Shown piece after piece: positions 45,932-53,223 of a DNA stretch of 64,000 nucleotides (position 1 is its first letter; the number at the start of each line of letters is the position of its first letter). The DNA comes from Paracoccaceae bacterium. GTDB lineage: Bacteria > Pseudomonadota > Alphaproteobacteria > Rhodobacterales > Rhodobacteraceae. The translations under genes were made by a program, and so were the position numbers. Under the pieces are notes generated by a model. It was not told the DNA's origin and ran no database searches. It saw only the letters and a program-made list of their open reading frames with translations. The DNA lies in the NCBI GenBank assembly GCA_024742705.1, contig JANSXZ010000012.1, positions 1-64,000 of the forward strand, read 5' to 3'.

Positions 45932-46975
45932 TCATGTCTCGACCTGCCAGTGCAGATCGAATCCTGGATCGAAGATCGTCACCGGACCGGCGCCAGTGTC
46001 CAGCGTGCCGCCGCCACGCCGCGGCGCCCCGCGGCGCAACACGATCCGCGTGTCGTTTTCGGGCAGCCGGTAAAACGCCGGCCCGTGCCGCGAGGCAAAG
46101 CCTTCCAACCGGTCCAGCGCATCGCTGGTTTCGAACACCTCGGCCAGGATCGCCATCGTATCGGTGGCGGTAAAGCATCCCGCGCAGCCGCAGGCGCTCA
46201 GTTTGTCGGGGTCGGGGTGCGGTGCGCTGTCGGTGCCCAGAAAGAACCGCGCATCGCCGGATGTCGCGGCCTCAAGCAGCGCGCGGCGGTGGGATTCGCG
46301 TTTCGCCACCGGCAGGCAATAATAGTGCGGCCGGATGCCACCAGCGAGGATGTGATTGCGGTTGATCACCAGATGATGTGTCGTGATGGTCGCACCCAGG
46401 TCGCCGCCGGTGTCCGACCGGGCATACTGCACCGCGCCTTCGGTGGTGATATGCTCCATCACCACGCGCAGGCCCTGCGTGCGGCGGCGCAGCGGATCGA
46501 GAACCCGATCGATGAACACCGCCTCGCGGTCGAAGATGTCGATATCGGCATCCGTCACCTCGCCGTGCACGCACAGCGGCAGGCCGATTTCGGCCATGCG
46601 TTCCAGAACCGGTTGAATCCGGTCGAAGCTGCGCACGCCGCTGGCGGAATTGGTGGTGGCCCCGGCCGGATAGAGCTTGACCGCATGGATCAGACCTTCG
46701 GCCTTTGCGCGCGCCACGTCATCGGGATCGGTTTCATCGGTCAGGTACAGCGTCATCAGCGGCTCGAACCGCGCGCCTTCGGGCAGCGCCGCGAGGATGC
46801 GCTGGCGATAGGCGCGGGCATCGTCGGATGTGACCACGGGCGGCACCAGGTTGGGCATGACGATCGCGCGGGCGAAATGGCGCGCGGTCTCGGGCAGGAC
46901 GGCCTTCAGCATCTCGCCATCGCGCAGGTGCAGGTGCCAGTCGTCGGGTCGGGTCAGGGTCAGCGTCTTGGACAT
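45932..46975 (-). CDS. pyrC: Dihydroorotase
   Basis: Zinc amidohydrolase closing carbamoyl-aspartate to dihydroorotate, 347 residues (type II PyrC, near 345). Metal ligands are His14 and His16 in [10 protein letters not shown] and the carbamylated Lys100 in [17 protein letters not shown] near 131 and TTHHLVIN near 169 supply further His ligands, and LGTDSAPH near 240 the catalytic Asp. A CGCAGCF segment near 255 is typical of this class. Forms a pyrimidine pair with pyrE. The start at 46973-46975 gives the known [18 protein letters not shown]-terminus. Confidence 0.95.
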
Positions 46976-47034: not shown

Positions 47035-48006
47035 TCAGAGCCCGTCGTCGTCTTCCTGGTCCGCGGCACGCGCCTCGCGCGCGGCCTTCTCGGCCTCGAG
47101 TTGCACCAGCCGCCGGCGCAGTTTGGGCGCTTTCATCCGCTGCGTCACGCTGCGGCACACCGCCATTTCCAGTTCCGCGCGACGCTGGCGTTGCAGCCGG
47201 GCGATCAGCGCGCGCAGATAGGGCGGATAGCTGCGCCGCTCGCGGAACAGCCGCGCAAAGCGCAGCGCGTCCAGACGGTCTTCGCCGGCATCCGCCAGCA
47301 TCCGGTACAGGATATCCATGCCGATCATGTGGCCCTGCAGATCCTTGCCGAGAAACGGCAGGCGCAGCCGCGTCACGCCGGGCCGGTGAAACAGCGCGGC
47401 ATGCATCGCGTCCAGATCCTCGTGCGGATCATAAAGCACGAAGGCGTGGTCGGCCGCCTGCAGCATCTCCGGGGCGTATCCGTACCGGTCGTTGAACGAC
47501 ACGAACCGCATGTCCAGATAGCGCCGGTCCCATTCCGTGACCCGCGGATCCAGAGTGGCCTGAGGCTGTACCGCGATCACCGTCGCCCCCGGCGCGGCGA
47601 TCGAAAACGCCGCCGCCGCATAGCCGCCGGGCCCGGCGCCATAGAACACGACGCGATCGAAGTCCTCGAAGAAGGCATCGTCGATCAGCCGGTCGAAGAA
47701 AGCATAGACGTTCGGATCGCGGAACCATGTGTCGCCGTCCGAGATCAAGCACAGATGCGACCAGCCCAGCGCGCGAACCATGTCAAAGCCCAACGGATGC
47801 GCGTCGCGGGATAGGGCGTGGATGCCCTGAATCGATTCGAAACTGACCAGCAGCGTGTTGCGATCGTCGATGAAGGTGGCGAAATGCGCGTTGCCCAGCG
47901 GCTGAAACAGGCCCTGGGCGTTGGCGATGTCGGCGAGGCTCTCGATCCAGGCGGATTTGTCCAGCCCGGCCAGCGAGATGTCCATCGGATGCTCGTCGTC
48001 CTGCAT
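47035..48006 (-). CDS. Uncharacterised protein with alpha/beta-hydrolase-like elbow lacking Ser
   Basis: Protein of 323 residues, no signal peptide. The core reads [38 protein letters not shown] near 118-155, very like the nucleophile elbow GxSxGG of alpha/beta hydrolases. The Ser position is Gly, however (GAGPGG), so catalysis by the usual triad is not expected. An Arg/Lys/Glu-rich helical tail (about 260-323) follows. Similar genes in roseobacters are, as far as I recall, sometimes named phosphoadenosine phosphosulfate reductase; I see no CysH signature. It lies downstream of the glycosyltransferase/sulfotransferase genes with a 117-base gap, so a role in the same glycan pathway is possible. 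Confidence 0.55.
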
Positions 48007-48123
48007 GTCTGCGTTCCTCTCACCGGTTGCGTTGAGGTGAACCGGTTGTTGTTGTGCATATCGCGACAATACGGCGAAAATTGGCAAAAACTAAGGGTCT
48101 GGAGGGTTTTGCGCGGCGCCGGC

Positions 48124-50451
48124 TCAGCTTTCCATGTCGTCCAGCGCGGTGGCATAGGCGGCGCGTTCGACGGCGGTCAGGCGCAGGGCGGTGGCACGGT
48201 CGAGAAGCGCGGCAAAATCGGGCCGGGCGCGCAGCGCGGCGGCGCGCGCGACGTGCCATGCCACCGCATCGCGGTGCAGCCGCGCGACCTGCGGGTCGGC
48301 CATCAGCCGGTCGCGCTCGGCCAGCATGCGCGGCAGGTTGCGCTGGATCGACAGGTCGGTGGTGTCGTTCCAGTCCATGCGCAGCCAGTAGTTCAGGCCG
48401 ATGCCGCGATCCACATGCAGCGCGCGCCCGCGCTGGCGCTTGATCAGAAAACCCTCGGCGCTGCGCAGCGCATAATGATTGAGTTGCACCAGATCATAGC
48501 CGACGGTCTTGCGCGACGACCGCCAGCCGCGTCGCGCCAGCGCCTCGGTCACATCCACGCCCGATCCGTTGGCCCATCGGATCCGGTCCGACATTTCGGG
48601 CAGCGGCTTGTTCGGGCGGTGCCCGCCCAGCCGCGCATAGGCGTCCAGCCCGTTTTGCAGCGTCTTGAAACCCCAGGCGACATGCGGCTTGGGGCAATAG
48701 CTGGGGGCGCATCGTTCGAACTGGGCGATCACGGGTGCGTCGCGCAGCCCGACGACGCCGTTGTGCCCGAACAGCCGCCAGGTCATCGCGATGTGGCTGG
48801 TGCCCGGGGGCATCCGCGCCAGAAGCGCGTCCAGACAGCCGTTTCCGGTGCGGATGTTGATGAATTCGTCAACGTCGATGTGGGCCACCCAGTCGGCCGC
48901 GCGTACCACAGGATCGGCGCGCGCGGTGTTCAGCGCGTGTTGCTGGGGCGAGTTGCCGCGCCAGTCGTCGTTGCGTCGGTGATGGACGATTCCCAAGGTG
49001 GCCAGCCGATCCAGCAGATGATCGGTGCCATCGCTGCAATCGTTGGTGTAGATCACGAAATCGGTGAACCCGATGGCGCGGTGGTGCGCCAGCCATTCCA
49101 GGATGTAGGGCGCTTCGTTCTTCATGCAGGCAATGATCGCCGCCCTTGGCCCGGCCAGCGCGTGCGCCCGGGCGTCTTCGTGCGTCGCGGCCGGATTGGG
49201 GGCAAAGGCCGGGCCGGGCTCGGTCAGGTCGGCGGTGCCATGCCGGTTGTCGGGCGCCAGGCCGGATCCGGCCAGGGTGGCGTATTGCGCCTGCGCCTCT
49301 GCCGGCAGCGCCGGGTTGACCGGGGGCAGACGGTTGGCCTTTTCGATCCGGTGCCAGACCGCCAGAAGGTACTGCGACGCGCGATATCCGAACAGCGGAT
49401 CCGCCTCGCGCCATGCGCCGGTGTCGTCCGGCGGGCGCAGCGCATCGGCCAGCCGCCGCGCCGCTGCCGGATCTTCCGCGCCGCGCGCCGCCAGTTCGAT
49501 TTCGGCGGTCACGCCATCGGCAAAGGCCGCGCCCGCCGCATGCAGGCTGCCCGGCGGGATCGATGGCCCGGCCACCGCAAGGTCGCGCAGGATGTCCAGC
49601 CACAGCGGCGCGGGCACATGGAACGCGCCGCCGTCCACCACCTGCGTCAGCAACACATTCATCGCCCGCGCCCGCGCCAGCCAGGCCGCCGGCAGCGGCT
49701 GGCGCACCGGCCGGGCGGGCGGCGCCGGCAGGTCTGTGCCCAGCCCCATCAGCGCGGCCACGGCCCGGCCCGCGCCGGCCCCGGCCAGCGCTTCGGCATC
49801 CGCCGCCACCGCAGTCAGGCTGCCGGCGCCGAACGCGCCCTCCCACAGTGCCCGCAGGCCGGCGACATCGATCCAGAACGGCGGTTGCTGGATTTCGTCG
49901 AAGTCGCGCCGCGCGGCGTCGTGCGGTGAAGGCGCGTCGCGGGCCGCACGCCAGGCCGCCGGATCGGCCGCCAGCGCCAGATCACGGCCCAGCGGCGCGC
50001 GACGGCCCATCATCACCTGCCAGCCATAGTGCCGCGCCAGCATCCGAGCCGGCGCCTCAAGCTGCATGATCAGCGATATCTCGCTGCCCAGCGGCCGCAG
50101 CATCCGACAGAGCCGCGCCACCTCGGATGGGTAGCGCAGCGTGCCTGCCAGATGCGGCGCCACCAGCAACAGCTTGCGCGGCTTCGCATCGGCGATGTTC
50201 TGGCGCAGCCGGGCCAGCATCTCGTCGCGCGCGCGGCTCTGGGCGGCGGGATGGGCCTGGCCATGCGCCGCGCGCAGCGGGTCGACATGCGCGGGGTCCA
50301 GCGCCGCCATTACCAGCCCGTGGTGATGCGGGCCGGGCGCGTCGGGCAACAGCGCGCCATCGGCGGCCAGCGCCGCGCCGGCTCTGCGCAGGATGTCGTG
50401 CACCGTTTCGGCCCCGGCCTGCATCGGTCCGATATGGATCACGATCTTCAT
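48124..50451 (-). CDS. Large protein: degenerate sulfotransferase-like domain plus GT2-type glycosyltransferase
   Basis: Protein of 775 residues. The N-terminus MKIVIHIGPMQAGAETVHDIL resembles the sulfotransferase phosphate loop (HIGPxKTGTTSLQ) but has lost the Lys-Thr-Gly-Thr residues (QAGA), so PAPS binding is doubtful. A middle region of about 300 residues is Ala/Pro-rich. From about 435 there is a GT2 (Glyco_tranf_2_4) domain: AIIACMKNEAPYILEWLAHH, YTNDCSDGTDHLLD, and the metal motif HIDVDEFINI near 530. The C-terminal RDAVAWHVARAAALRARPD is shared with the GT2 protein at 51071, showing common descent. Overlaps the sulfotransferase-like gene by 4 bases (ATGA). Confidence 0.75.
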   Translation of the reverse strand: MKIVIHIGPMQAGAETVHDILRRAGAALAADGALLPDAPGPHHHGLVMAALDPAHVDPLRAAHGQAHPAAQSRARDEMLARLRQNIADAKPRKLLLVAPHLAGTLRYPSEVARLCRMLRPLGSEISLIMQLEAPARMLARHYGWQVMMGRRAPLGRDLALAADPAAWRAARDAPSPHDAARRDFDEIQQPPFWIDVAGLRALWEGAFGAGSLTAVAADAEALAGAGAGRAVAALMGLGTDLPAPPARPVRQPLPAAWLARARAMNVLLTQVVDGGAFHVPAPLWLDILRDLAVAGPSIPPGSLHAAGAAFADGVTAEIELAARGAEDPAAARRLADALRPPDDTGAWREADPLFGYRASQYLLAVWHRIEKANRLPPVNPALPAEAQAQYATLAGSGLAPDNRHGTADLTEPGPAFAPNPAATHEDARAHALAGPRAAIIACMKNEAPYILEWLAHHRAIGFTDFVIYTNDCSDGTDHLLDRLATLGIVHHRRNDDWRGNSPQQHALNTARADPVVRAADWVAHIDVDEFINIRTGNGCLDALLARMPPGTSHIAMTWRLFGHNGVVGLRDAPVIAQFERCAPSYCPKPHVAWGFKTLQNGLDAYARLGGHRPNKPLPEMSDRIRWANGSGVDVTEALARRGWRSSRKTVGYDLVQLNHYALRSAEGFLIKRQRGRALHVDRGIGLNYWLRMDWNDTTDLSIQRNLPRMLAERDRLMADPQVARLHRDAVAWHVARAAALRARPDFAALLDRATALRLTAVERAAYATALDDMES

Positions 50452-51074
50452 GCTGAACCGGCGCGCGGGTTGGCGTTGACCTTGCCCCACCAAGGCAGAT
50501 CGCGCCCGACAAATCCGGCGACCCGCGCCCGCGCGTCCGGTGCGGCGACATCCACCTCGAGAAAATCGTCGGCCCCCGCGAAGATCCGCTGCAGGAAATC
50601 ATAGTGGCCGTCGATCCAGCGGCAGCGCGCCGCGTCGGTGCCGCCAAACCCGGCCGGCAGCCCAGGCACGGCCCCCTCGGGCAGCCGCGAGGTTCCCAGG
50701 TCCGACCAGGCCAGCATCGACCGCGACATCGCGCTGGCCGCGCGCCGTGTCGCCAGGAAGCGGATGCCGGGATGGTGCCTGCGCAAGGCTTCGATGATAC
50801 CGTAATCCGTCTGCGGCCAGACCGACAGACCCGCGCGCAGCACGCTCATCTCCGACACCGCGTCGAATTCGTCCAGAAGCGCGCCAGGATCGCCGGTTCC
50901 GAAGTACCCGCGGTACATCAGCACGCCCACGAACTTGCGCTGGATCGCCGGGTTCGCGGTCTGGCGGGGCCGGATGCGGTGGTCGGCCACCTTCAGCCCG
51001 GCCAGCTTCAGCGCCCGTCCCAGCGTCGTCGTGCCCGATTTCGGCAGTCCCAGGTTCACCGTCAGCAGCGTCAT
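50448..51074 (-). CDS. Sulfotransferase-like protein
   Basis: Protein of 208 residues. The 5'-phosphosulfate loop is well preserved near the N-terminus, VNLGLPKSGTTTLGRAL at 6-22. A later RFLATRRAASAMSRSMLAW near 106-124 corresponds to the 3'-phosphate-binding Arg/Ser segment of PAPS sulfotransferases. A glycan acceptor is suggested by the flanking glycosyltransferases, to which it is joined by 4-base overlaps on both sides; the acceptor itself is unknown. The ATG at 51072-51074 follows directly on the end of the upstream GT2 gene. Confidence 0.78.
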   Translation of the reverse strand: MTLLTVNLGLPKSGTTTLGRALKLAGLKVADHRIRPRQTANPAIQRKFVGVLMYRGYFGTGDPGALLDEFDAVSEMSVLRAGLSVWPQTDYGIIEALRRHHPGIRFLATRRAASAMSRSMLAWSDLGTSRLPEGAVPGLPAGFGGTDAARCRWIDGHYDFLQRIFAGADDFLEVDVAAPDARARVAGFVGRDLPWWGKVNANPRAGSA

Positions 51075-52141
51075 GGCTTCAGCCCCAACCGCGCGATCAG
51101 CGCCGCCTCGTCCGGGGGCAGCAGCGGCGCCGCGGCCAGCGCGCGCCGCAGCGCCTCGGTGGCCGGGTCGGTGCGCAGCTGTGCGATGCGGGCATGATGC
51201 CAGGCCACCGCGTCGCGGTGCAGCGCGGCAATCTCGGGATCCGCCTTCAGCCGTGCCAGCGCCTCGTGCAACTGCGGCAGGCGGCGCCGGATCGACAGAT
51301 CCTGCCAGGCCGGATCGTTGCGCGCCCGCCAATACCCGTCGTCAAAGGCGCGGTGCGCGCGGTTCACGTCGCCCCTGTCGATCTTCAACAGATAGCTGTC
51401 CAGCGCGCGCAACGCATAATGGTTCAGCGTGGCAAAGCGGCGCGCGCCCCGCGCCGGAAACTTGCGGATGCGGCGCTTGGCAGCGGCGCGGGCAAAGGCA
51501 TCGGGCACCTGACGCCCGCTGCCATCGGTCCATCGCGGCACCTCTGCGCCCCGGCGCAGGAACGGCCGGTGCGCGCCCAGGTACCACAGGGGAAAATCCG
51601 CCCGCGTCAGTGTCTTCACCTCGATCGCCGTCTCGCCGCACCACAGGTCCGGGTTGTGGCTGCGGTCGAACTGGCCAATCACCGGGCGATCGCGGAACGC
51701 AGACACACCGCAATTGGCGAAGAACTGGAAGCTCAGCGAAATCGCCGCCGGGGCGCCGCAGGCGGCGATCAGGTCGTCAAACCGGCCGGCGCCGACGTGA
51801 ATGTTGACGAACTCGTCCACATCCGCCACCCAGACCCAGTCGGCCGCCCGCACCACCGGCCGGCGCGCGGCGTCTTTCAGCGCCTCCATCTGGTAATTGC
51901 GGCCCTGCGCCGGGTTGGCCAGATGCACCACCCCGCCGCGCCGCGCCAGCGCGTCCAGCATGGCATCTGTGCCATCGCTGCAATCGTTGGAATAGAACAG
52001 GAAATCGGTGACCCCGGCCATCCGGTGCCAGGCAATCCATTCCAGAAGGAACGGCGCCTCGTTCTTCACGCATGTCACCGCGACGATCCGCCGGCCCTGC
52101 GGCGGCGGCCCTCGATCCCGGCTGGCTGTGGCGTCTTGCAT
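51071..52141 (-). CDS. GT2-type glycosyltransferase (Glyco_tranf_2_4)
   Basis: Protein of 356 residues with a GT-A domain: IVAVTCVKNEAPFLLEWIAWHR near 19-40, FYSNDCSDGTDAMLD near 48-62, metal motif WVADVDEFVNI near 105-115, and ANCGVSAFRDRPVIGQFDR near 143-161. The C-terminus (LHRDAVAWHHARIAQLRTDP) is shared with the large protein at 48124. No membrane segment. First gene of the minus-strand cluster; the 164 bases upstream separate it from the divergent cox operon. The start at 52139-52141 is an ATG without a striking ribosome-binding site; the upstream open sequence is Arg-rich and lies antisense to coxD. Confidence 0.85.
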   Translation of the reverse strand: MQDATASRDRGPPPQGRRIVAVTCVKNEAPFLLEWIAWHRMAGVTDFLFYSNDCSDGTDAMLDALARRGGVVHLANPAQGRNYQMEALKDAARRPVVRAADWVWVADVDEFVNIHVGAGRFDDLIAACGAPAAISLSFQFFANCGVSAFRDRPVIGQFDRSHNPDLWCGETAIEVKTLTRADFPLWYLGAHRPFLRRGAEVPRWTDGSGRQVPDAFARAAAKRRIRKFPARGARRFATLNHYALRALDSYLLKIDRGDVNRAHRAFDDGYWRARNDPAWQDLSIRRRLPQLHEALARLKADPEIAALHRDAVAWHHARIAQLRTDPATEALRRALAAAPLLPPDEAALIARLGLKP

Positions 52142-52305: not shown

Positions 52306-53223
52306 ATGACCCCCCCCAATTCCATTGATGCCGTCCAGCAGATGCTCGCCGCCCAGAACTACATCTGCGGACGCGCCCTGGCGACCGTGGTCTTCCTGTC
52401 GCTGCGGCTCGGCCGGCCGCTGTTTCTCGAAGGCGAGGCCGGCGTCGGCAAGACCGAAATCGCCAAGGCCATCGCGGCCGGACTCGACCGTCGCCTGATC
52501 CGCCTGCAATGCTACGAGGGCCTCGATGCCGCCAGCGCGGTCTACGAATGGAACTTCCCGGCCCAGATGATCGCGATCCGCACCGCCGAAGCCGCAGCCG
52601 CCGGCACCACCACCGACCGCAAGGCACTTCAGGCCGAACTCTTCTCCGACGACTTTCTCGTCGAACGCCCACTGCTCGAGGCCATGCGCCCGGATCCGCG
52701 CGGCGCCCCGGTCCTGCTCATCGACGAACTCGACCGAACCGACGAACCCTTCGAGGCTTTCCTGCTCGAGGCTCTTTCCGATTTCCAGGTGACAATCCCG
52801 GAAATGGGGACCGTCAAGGCCCCCGAACCGCCGGTGGTGATCCTGACCTCCAACCGCACCCGCGAGGTGCACGACGCGCTCAAACGGCGCTGCCTCTATC
52901 ATTGGGTCGATTATCCCACCTTCGACCGCGAGGCCGAAATCCTCGCCGCCCGCGCCCCCGAAGCCGCCGCCAGCCTCAGCCGCGAGGTCGTCGCCTTCGT
53001 CCAGCAACTGCGCACCGAAGACCTCTTCAAGAAACCCGGCGTCGCCGAAACCATTGACTGGGCCAAGTGCCTGCTCGCCCTCGACGTGATCTCGCTCAGC
53101 CCCGAAGTCATCGCCGACACGCTCGGCGCGATCCTGAAATACCAGGACGACATCCAGAAACTCCAGGGCTCCGAGGCAAAGCGCCTGCTCGACGCCGCGC
53201 GCGCCCGGCTCGAACCGGCATGA
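52306..53223 (+). CDS. coxD: MoxR-type AAA ATPase (CoxD-like)
   Basis: AAA+ chaperone ATPase of 305 residues: Walker A GEAGVGKT at 43-50, Walker B VLLIDELDR near 136-144, the MoxR-type EALSDFQVTIPEMG insertion near 155, sensor 1 ILTSNRTREV near 177 and an arginine finger in KRRCLYHWVDYP. In carboxydotrophs the CoxD protein works with VWA protein CoxE in maturing the molybdenum active site; the same pairing with a downstream VWA gene (coxE) is seen here. First gene of the cox cluster. A repeat element lies between it and coxE. Confidence 0.88.
   Translation: MTPPNSIDAVQQMLAAQNYICGRALATVVFLSLRLGRPLFLEGEAGVGKTEIAKAIAAGLDRRLIRLQCYEGLDAASAVYEWNFPAQMIAIRTAEAAAAGTTTDRKALQAELFSDDFLVERPLLEAMRPDPRGAPVLLIDELDRTDEPFEAFLLEALSDFQVTIPEMGTVKAPEPPVVILTSNRTREVHDALKRRCLYHWVDYPTFDREAEILAARAPEAAASLSREVVAFVQQLRTEDLFKKPGVAETIDWAKCLLALDVISLSPEVIADTLGAILKYQDDIQKLQGSEAKRLLDAARARLEPA

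Follow-up and report, generated by a model that had tools for sequence, protein, structure and literature searches.

Within the window, the stretch of 64,000 nucleotides that was analysed, a compact group of minus-strand genes raises the question of what a set of glycosyltransferases, a sulfotransferase-like protein and a hydrolase-like protein might make together, and of whether every one of its domains is a working enzyme. The first-pass annotation had described three minus-strand genes joined by 4-base overlaps, and the gene lengths, positions and overlaps are all as given there; the sequences GLPKSGTTTL in PST and HIGPMQAGAE in FUS are likewise found in the translations. The family concerned, the Rhodobacteraceae, the Roseobacter group included, is abundant in the sea. 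The features are as follows, with the evidence for each in brackets.

51071..52141, minus strand: GT2A, a family 2 glycosyltransferase of 356 aa (PF13704, E 3e-21; DVDE at residues 107-110)
50448..51074, minus strand: PST, a P-loop protein assigned to the sulfotransferase superfamily, 208 aa (invariant loop; Sulfotransfer_4 in orthologues)
51024..51056, minus strand: putative 5'-phosphosulfate-binding loop of PST, NLGLPKSGTTT, residues 7-17 (alignment)
48124..50451, minus strand: FUS, a 775-aa fusion of a pseudo-sulfotransferase domain and a GT2 (Pfam, alignment, AlphaFold2)
49462..50451, minus strand: N-terminal domain of FUS, about residues 1-330, a sulfotransferase homologue without PAPS motifs (hhalign)
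48127..49146, minus strand: C-terminal GT2 domain of FUS, residues 436-775, DVDE at 526-529 (PF13704, 1.1e-23; GT-A structures as best fold matches)
47035..48006, minus strand: P4, an alpha/beta-hydrolase-fold protein of 323 aa with Gly125 at the nucleophile position (AlphaFold2, Foldseek, alignment)
47620..47646, minus strand: elbow of P4, FYGAGPGGY, residues 121-129, strand-turn-helix, Gly instead of Ser (alignment, model)
48007..48123, minus strand: gap between FUS and P4, where an FkbM methyltransferase gene and GT2B, both present in relatives, are absent (locus comparison)
45932..46975, minus strand: pyrC-like gene, conserved downstream neighbour and boundary marker, outside the function (locus comparison)
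52306..53223, plus strand: MoxR-type AAA ATPase gene, conserved divergent neighbour and boundary marker (locus comparison)

The GT2A/PST and PST/FUS junctions are overlaps of the ATGA type, and 117 bases separate FUS from P4. In the window P4 is followed by pyrC, pyrE and dnaB, and the divergent MoxR-type AAA ATPase and CoxE-like genes lie on the opposite flank. Pfam searches with the single window proteins return PF13704 for GT2A and for the C-terminus of FUS, and leave the other parts without a match above cut-off. The gene order in relatives is GT2A, PST, FUS, optionally the FkbM gene and GT2B, then P4 and pyrC-pyrE-dnaB, with MoxR/CoxE divergent upstream. Reading frames overlap or nearly do so across relatives, and the 4-base overlap of GT2A with PST is seen again in 32 of 35 orthologous loci. 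The 40 fetched loci contain PST in 35 cases, FkbM in 23, GT2B in 38 and P4 in 35; these loci were picked for holding FUS, so that the counts describe the cassette and not its frequency. The FkbM gene of relatives matches PF05050 in 20 of 22 cases.

Frequency is given by a survey of 199 Rhodobacteraceae genomes, one per genus, in which presence was read from search tables; the threshold for FUS was set between E values of 3e-136 and 2e-111, where the table has a gap. FUS occurs in 56 genera and PST in 54; both are present in 53, FUS only in 3, PST only in 1 and neither in 142 (Fisher p 2e-43). Because three genera keep FUS without PST, sulfation appears to be dispensable for the cassette. An independent PST-motif scan of one genome per species yields approximately 270 PST-encoding relatives, and in the best 80 of these 270 loci GT2A is found in 72 and FUS in 72, mostly at the same chromosomal place. 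The first-pass annotation had set its proposal against a scatter of homologues that do not occur together; across the 40 fetched loci, the best 80 PST loci and the 199 genera, the cassette is instead syntenic and co-occurring. Cargo of a mobile element or phage was considered and rejected, as PST has no plasmid or phage match and the chromosomal position is fixed. Where the best PST loci depart from this order PST has moved; in five loci (L181, L189, L190, L205 and L048) it stands between N-acetylmuramoyl-alanine-amidase-type and PBP1A-type genes, and FUS is kept in at least three genomes with a relocated PST (G005, G138 and G044). One relocated PST (L161:7628-14878) lies amid polysaccharide-export-like and YjbH-like genes, as judged by eye. 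The literature searched contains no description of the cassette, no phenotype and no experimental data, and within that literature this small Rhodobacteraceae gene set at a fixed chromosomal spot is so far undescribed.

The glycosyltransferases are the most readily assigned members. Both GT2s match PF13704 above cut-off (3e-21 for GT2A, 1e-23 for the FUS C-terminus), the acidic DXD-type motif of GT2A, DVDE, is invariant in 27 aligned sequences, and the C-terminal half of FUS is a GT-A glycosyltransferase whose DVDE motif is also invariant. In the tree GT2A, the GT2 domain of FUS and GT2B form three clades, each with 100% support, indicating three old paralogues that travel together. The block RDAVAWHxARxAxLR, which the first-pass annotation had taken as common to the GT2 proteins, is indeed shared by the two window GT2s (51170-51240 versus 48230-48300, 14 of 20 positions identical), but it is peculiar to this genome and was rejected as a family hallmark: the same block in 26 orthologous GT2A/FUS pairs has a mean identity of 6.6 of 20 and a maximum of 10 of 20. 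The DNA differences within LHRDAVAWH sit at third codon positions, which does not favour recent gene conversion; old conversion and convergence are candidate causes of the likeness.

Assignment of PST to the sulfotransferase superfamily is supported by conserved motifs and profile matches. The sequence NLGLPKxGTT is invariant in 36 of 36 orthologues, R111 is invariant and S119 is conserved in at least 90%; the PKxGTT loop and this R...S pair, which follows the central strand and was assigned by sequence position, correspond to the PAPS-binding motifs of the superfamily. Sulfotransfer_4 (PF17784) is matched by 32 of 36 orthologues, with a best value of 3.9e-11, whereas the window copy alone reaches 0.017, below the Pfam cut-off. 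All eight matches of PST to PDB profiles are sulfotransferases, although these matches are weak (best E 0.27).

The N-terminal half of FUS is matched convincingly by no Pfam family in the 40 members searched, and its ancestry becomes visible only through an intermediate set of Rhodobacteraceae proteins fetched by the motif HIGxxKTGTT. Profile-profile alignment of the FUS N-terminus with these proteins using hhalign gives a probability of 99.8 and an E value of 3.2e-29 over 276 columns, compared with less than 1% for three unrelated cassette profiles used as controls (A3, A5 and A6), and the HIGxxKTGTT proteins in their turn match 3rnl, a sulfotransferase of known structure, at 1e-8. The P-loop, its Lys included, is absent from all 40 aligned FUS orthologues, and the 62 other orthologues inspected have no P-loop either; in the 40 aligned sequences the 3'-phosphate site has also lost its R and S to other residues, while G149, R150, W193, D195, W203, F207, G208 and R260 are invariant. 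The finding that the residues of the P-loop and 3'-site are lost while other positions are invariant suggests that the domain has been retained although the usual mode of PAPS binding is closed to it. It would therefore be classed as a sulfotransferase homologue and not filed as an active sulfotransferase. The missing P-loop of the fused domain had been noted in the first-pass annotation as a decay of this gene, an explanation that was rejected since the loop is absent from every orthologue seen; the loss is ancestral rather than local. Derivation of the domain from PST is not supported either (hhalign 1.9%), the two belonging to different sulfotransferase subfamilies. The AlphaFold2 model of FUS has a mean pLDDT of 86, and among the top 50 Foldseek matches of whole FUS, a search in which the N-terminal domain was not isolated, only nucleotide-sugar GT-A-type structures appear. 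The proposed sulfotransferase nature of PST and of the FUS N-terminus thus finds support in Sulfotransfer_4 and in profile-profile comparison, and the fold search with whole FUS adds no match to it.

P4 presents a second case of the same kind. Its AlphaFold2 model (pLDDT 93.9) has an alpha/beta-hydrolase fold, and Foldseek returns many hydrolases (best E 6e-7, TM-scores 0.34-0.45), the matches including the entry 2c7b and, at TM-scores of 0.39-0.45, esterases, 6oyc (Gap123 glycosylation complex) and 6yuo (serogroup A meningococcal capsule O-acetyltransferase). The hydrolase-like elbow without its Ser that had been remarked in the fourth gene is real: between the strand at 118-124 and the helix at 126-137 the residue is Gly125, and Gly occupies this position in 36 of 36 aligned sequences, none of which has the elbow nucleophile of a GxSxG motif. 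In sister loci the P4-type domains retain GxSxG, for instance as GASMGGY, and it follows that the P4 of the cassette has lost its nucleophile. Several P4-type domains are fused into large proteins with GT2 and HIG sulfotransferase-type domains, which ties P4 to glycosyltransfer and sulfotransfer. Such modular proteins, up to 1742 aa long, occur at L240, L241, L244, L247 and L249-L251, and no description of them in these sister lineages was found in the literature searched.

Taken as a whole, these observations are best explained by a cytosolic cassette that makes a sulfated glycan with two non-catalytic binding or positioning parts, an explanation to which we give about even confidence. The cassette would be a vertically inherited Rhodobacteraceae set of soluble, cytosolic glycan enzymes in which GT2A and the GT2 domain of FUS add sugars to an acceptor that is produced elsewhere, with GT2B adding a third GT2 transfer in most relatives. 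PST would move sulfate from PAPS onto the growing glycan, and the FkbM enzyme may methylate the glycan in about half of the relatives. Since catalytic residues are lost throughout the family, the N-terminus of FUS and P4 probably have a binding or positioning role in place of a catalytic one: the former, having lost PAPS binding, most likely keeps the acceptor or the sulfated glycan in place for the fused GT2, and the latter, without its nucleophile, is most likely a binding partner. The first-pass reading of the locus as one for a sulfated surface glycan is upheld by sequence as far as the superfamily assignment goes, and the sulfated surface product is a candidate beyond it. What is shown is which domains and motifs are there, that the genes are syntenic and occur together, and that catalytic residues are missing across the family; the scaffold roles, the envelope destination, sulfation and the sequence of steps are inferred. 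A broader proposal, put forward tentatively and with less than even confidence, is that of a lineage-specific modular system, present in roughly a quarter of the genera of the family, in which sulfotransferase and alpha/beta-hydrolase domains turned non-catalytic steer partner glycosyltransferases in making a sulfated envelope glycoconjugate.

Several alternatives bear on these proposals. PST might be another P-loop transferase or a kinase-like enzyme and the product an unsulfated glycan, as suggested by the sub-threshold Pfam value of the window copy, by the weakness of the best PDB profile match and by the supply of sulfate donor. In the bacterium's own assembly, which is about 90% complete, neither an APS kinase (PF01583) nor a Sat-type ATP sulfurylase (PF01747) was found, and a PF01507 reductase-type gene lies at C9:65102-65677, just beyond the window. 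The absent PAPS-making genes count against sulfation in this strain; our tentative reading is that a gap in the assembly is more probable here than a real loss. Of the 199 family genomes 185 have an APS kinase, which for that reason is uninformative as a marker separating genomes with the cassette. Against a non-sulfotransferase PST stand the family-level matches to Sulfotransfer_4, the invariant loop and R...S pair with their superfamily counterparts, and the exclusively sulfotransferase, though weak, PDB profile matches, and we consider this alternative distinctly improbable. It is more improbable still that the cassette is decaying in this genome and the pathway on its way out. The window cassette is divergent and lacks both FkbM and GT2B, and the long branch of its FUS (2.18; median 0.52) adjoins that of G079, which is also a reduced copy; however, long branches meet at that point of the tree, and composition may also drive long branches. 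All four frames are open, the active-site motifs of both GT2s, the PST loop and the overlaps are intact, and two other genera without GT2B (G047 and G079) keep the core.

The destination of the product is a separate matter. The cassette contains no priming enzyme, flippase, polymerase or exporter/transporter, which counts against the preferred explanation. This absence, and the solubility of all its parts, might be expected if the target of glycosylation and sulfation is a protein or small metabolite (e.g., flagellin, a lipoprotein or some secreted product) instead of a surface polysaccharide or glycolipid. The fold matches of the GT2s include protein glycosyltransferases such as collagen galactosyltransferase and SunS, and one P4 match is a component of the Gap123 adhesin glycosylation complex, but fold matches at such TM-scores cannot tell acceptors apart. 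Moreover, across 120 loci the cassette is accompanied by no conserved gene for an acceptor protein or for secretion and by no biosynthetic core, and a protein or metabolite target is judged unlikely. The preferred reading, that of a sulfated envelope glycan, would, if true, have consequences for how these bacteria attach, are recognised by phages and live alongside algae. The function of the cassette is directly testable, as its position is fixed, its markers are single-copy and variants that have lost genes exist in nature; the FUS pseudo-sulfotransferase/GT2 together with a P4 without nucleophile, whose nucleophile-bearing relatives are at hand, lends itself well to the study of pseudoenzymes in glycan synthesis.

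Comparison with known systems places the cassette close to several of them. Like PAPS-dependent sulfotransferases (Sulfotransfer_3/_4; 3rnl), PST has the PKxGTT loop and R...S pair, and the FUS N-terminus is homologous over about 276 columns to HIGxxKTGTT members; unlike them, PST is short (208 aa) with low single scores, and the FUS domain lacks the two cofactor motifs in all orthologues seen. The PF13704 (Glyco_tranf_2_4) match, DVDE motif and GT-A fold are those of CAZy GT2, whereas the keeping together of three ancient paralogues, one of them fused to a pseudo-sulfotransferase, sets the cassette apart. P4 resembles the alpha/beta-hydrolase-fold glycan acyltransferases (6yuo and the Gap123 component 6oyc) in its fold and strand-turn-helix elbow, and P4-type relatives keep GxSxG and are fused to GT-containing proteins, but in P4 itself the nucleophile position is Gly in 36 of 36 sequences, and its TM-scores are only 0.39-0.42. 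Sulfated glycans and sulfotransferases also feature in the sulfated capsular polysaccharide loci of marine Cobetia (PMC11766843) and Vibrio (PMC11641403); those are capsule loci, whereas the present cassette is small, fixed in the chromosome and without genes for export or polymer formation. Within the same family, the R. capsulatus genes rcc01081-01086, rcc01932 and rcc01958-01960 are described as genes of capsular polysaccharide biosynthesis, chain initiation and wzc/wzb/wza export (PMC10218006); they too are Rhodobacteraceae envelope glycan genes, set apart from the cassette by that description. The kinds of enzyme in the cassette are known, and what is unusual is its double pseudoenzyme content.
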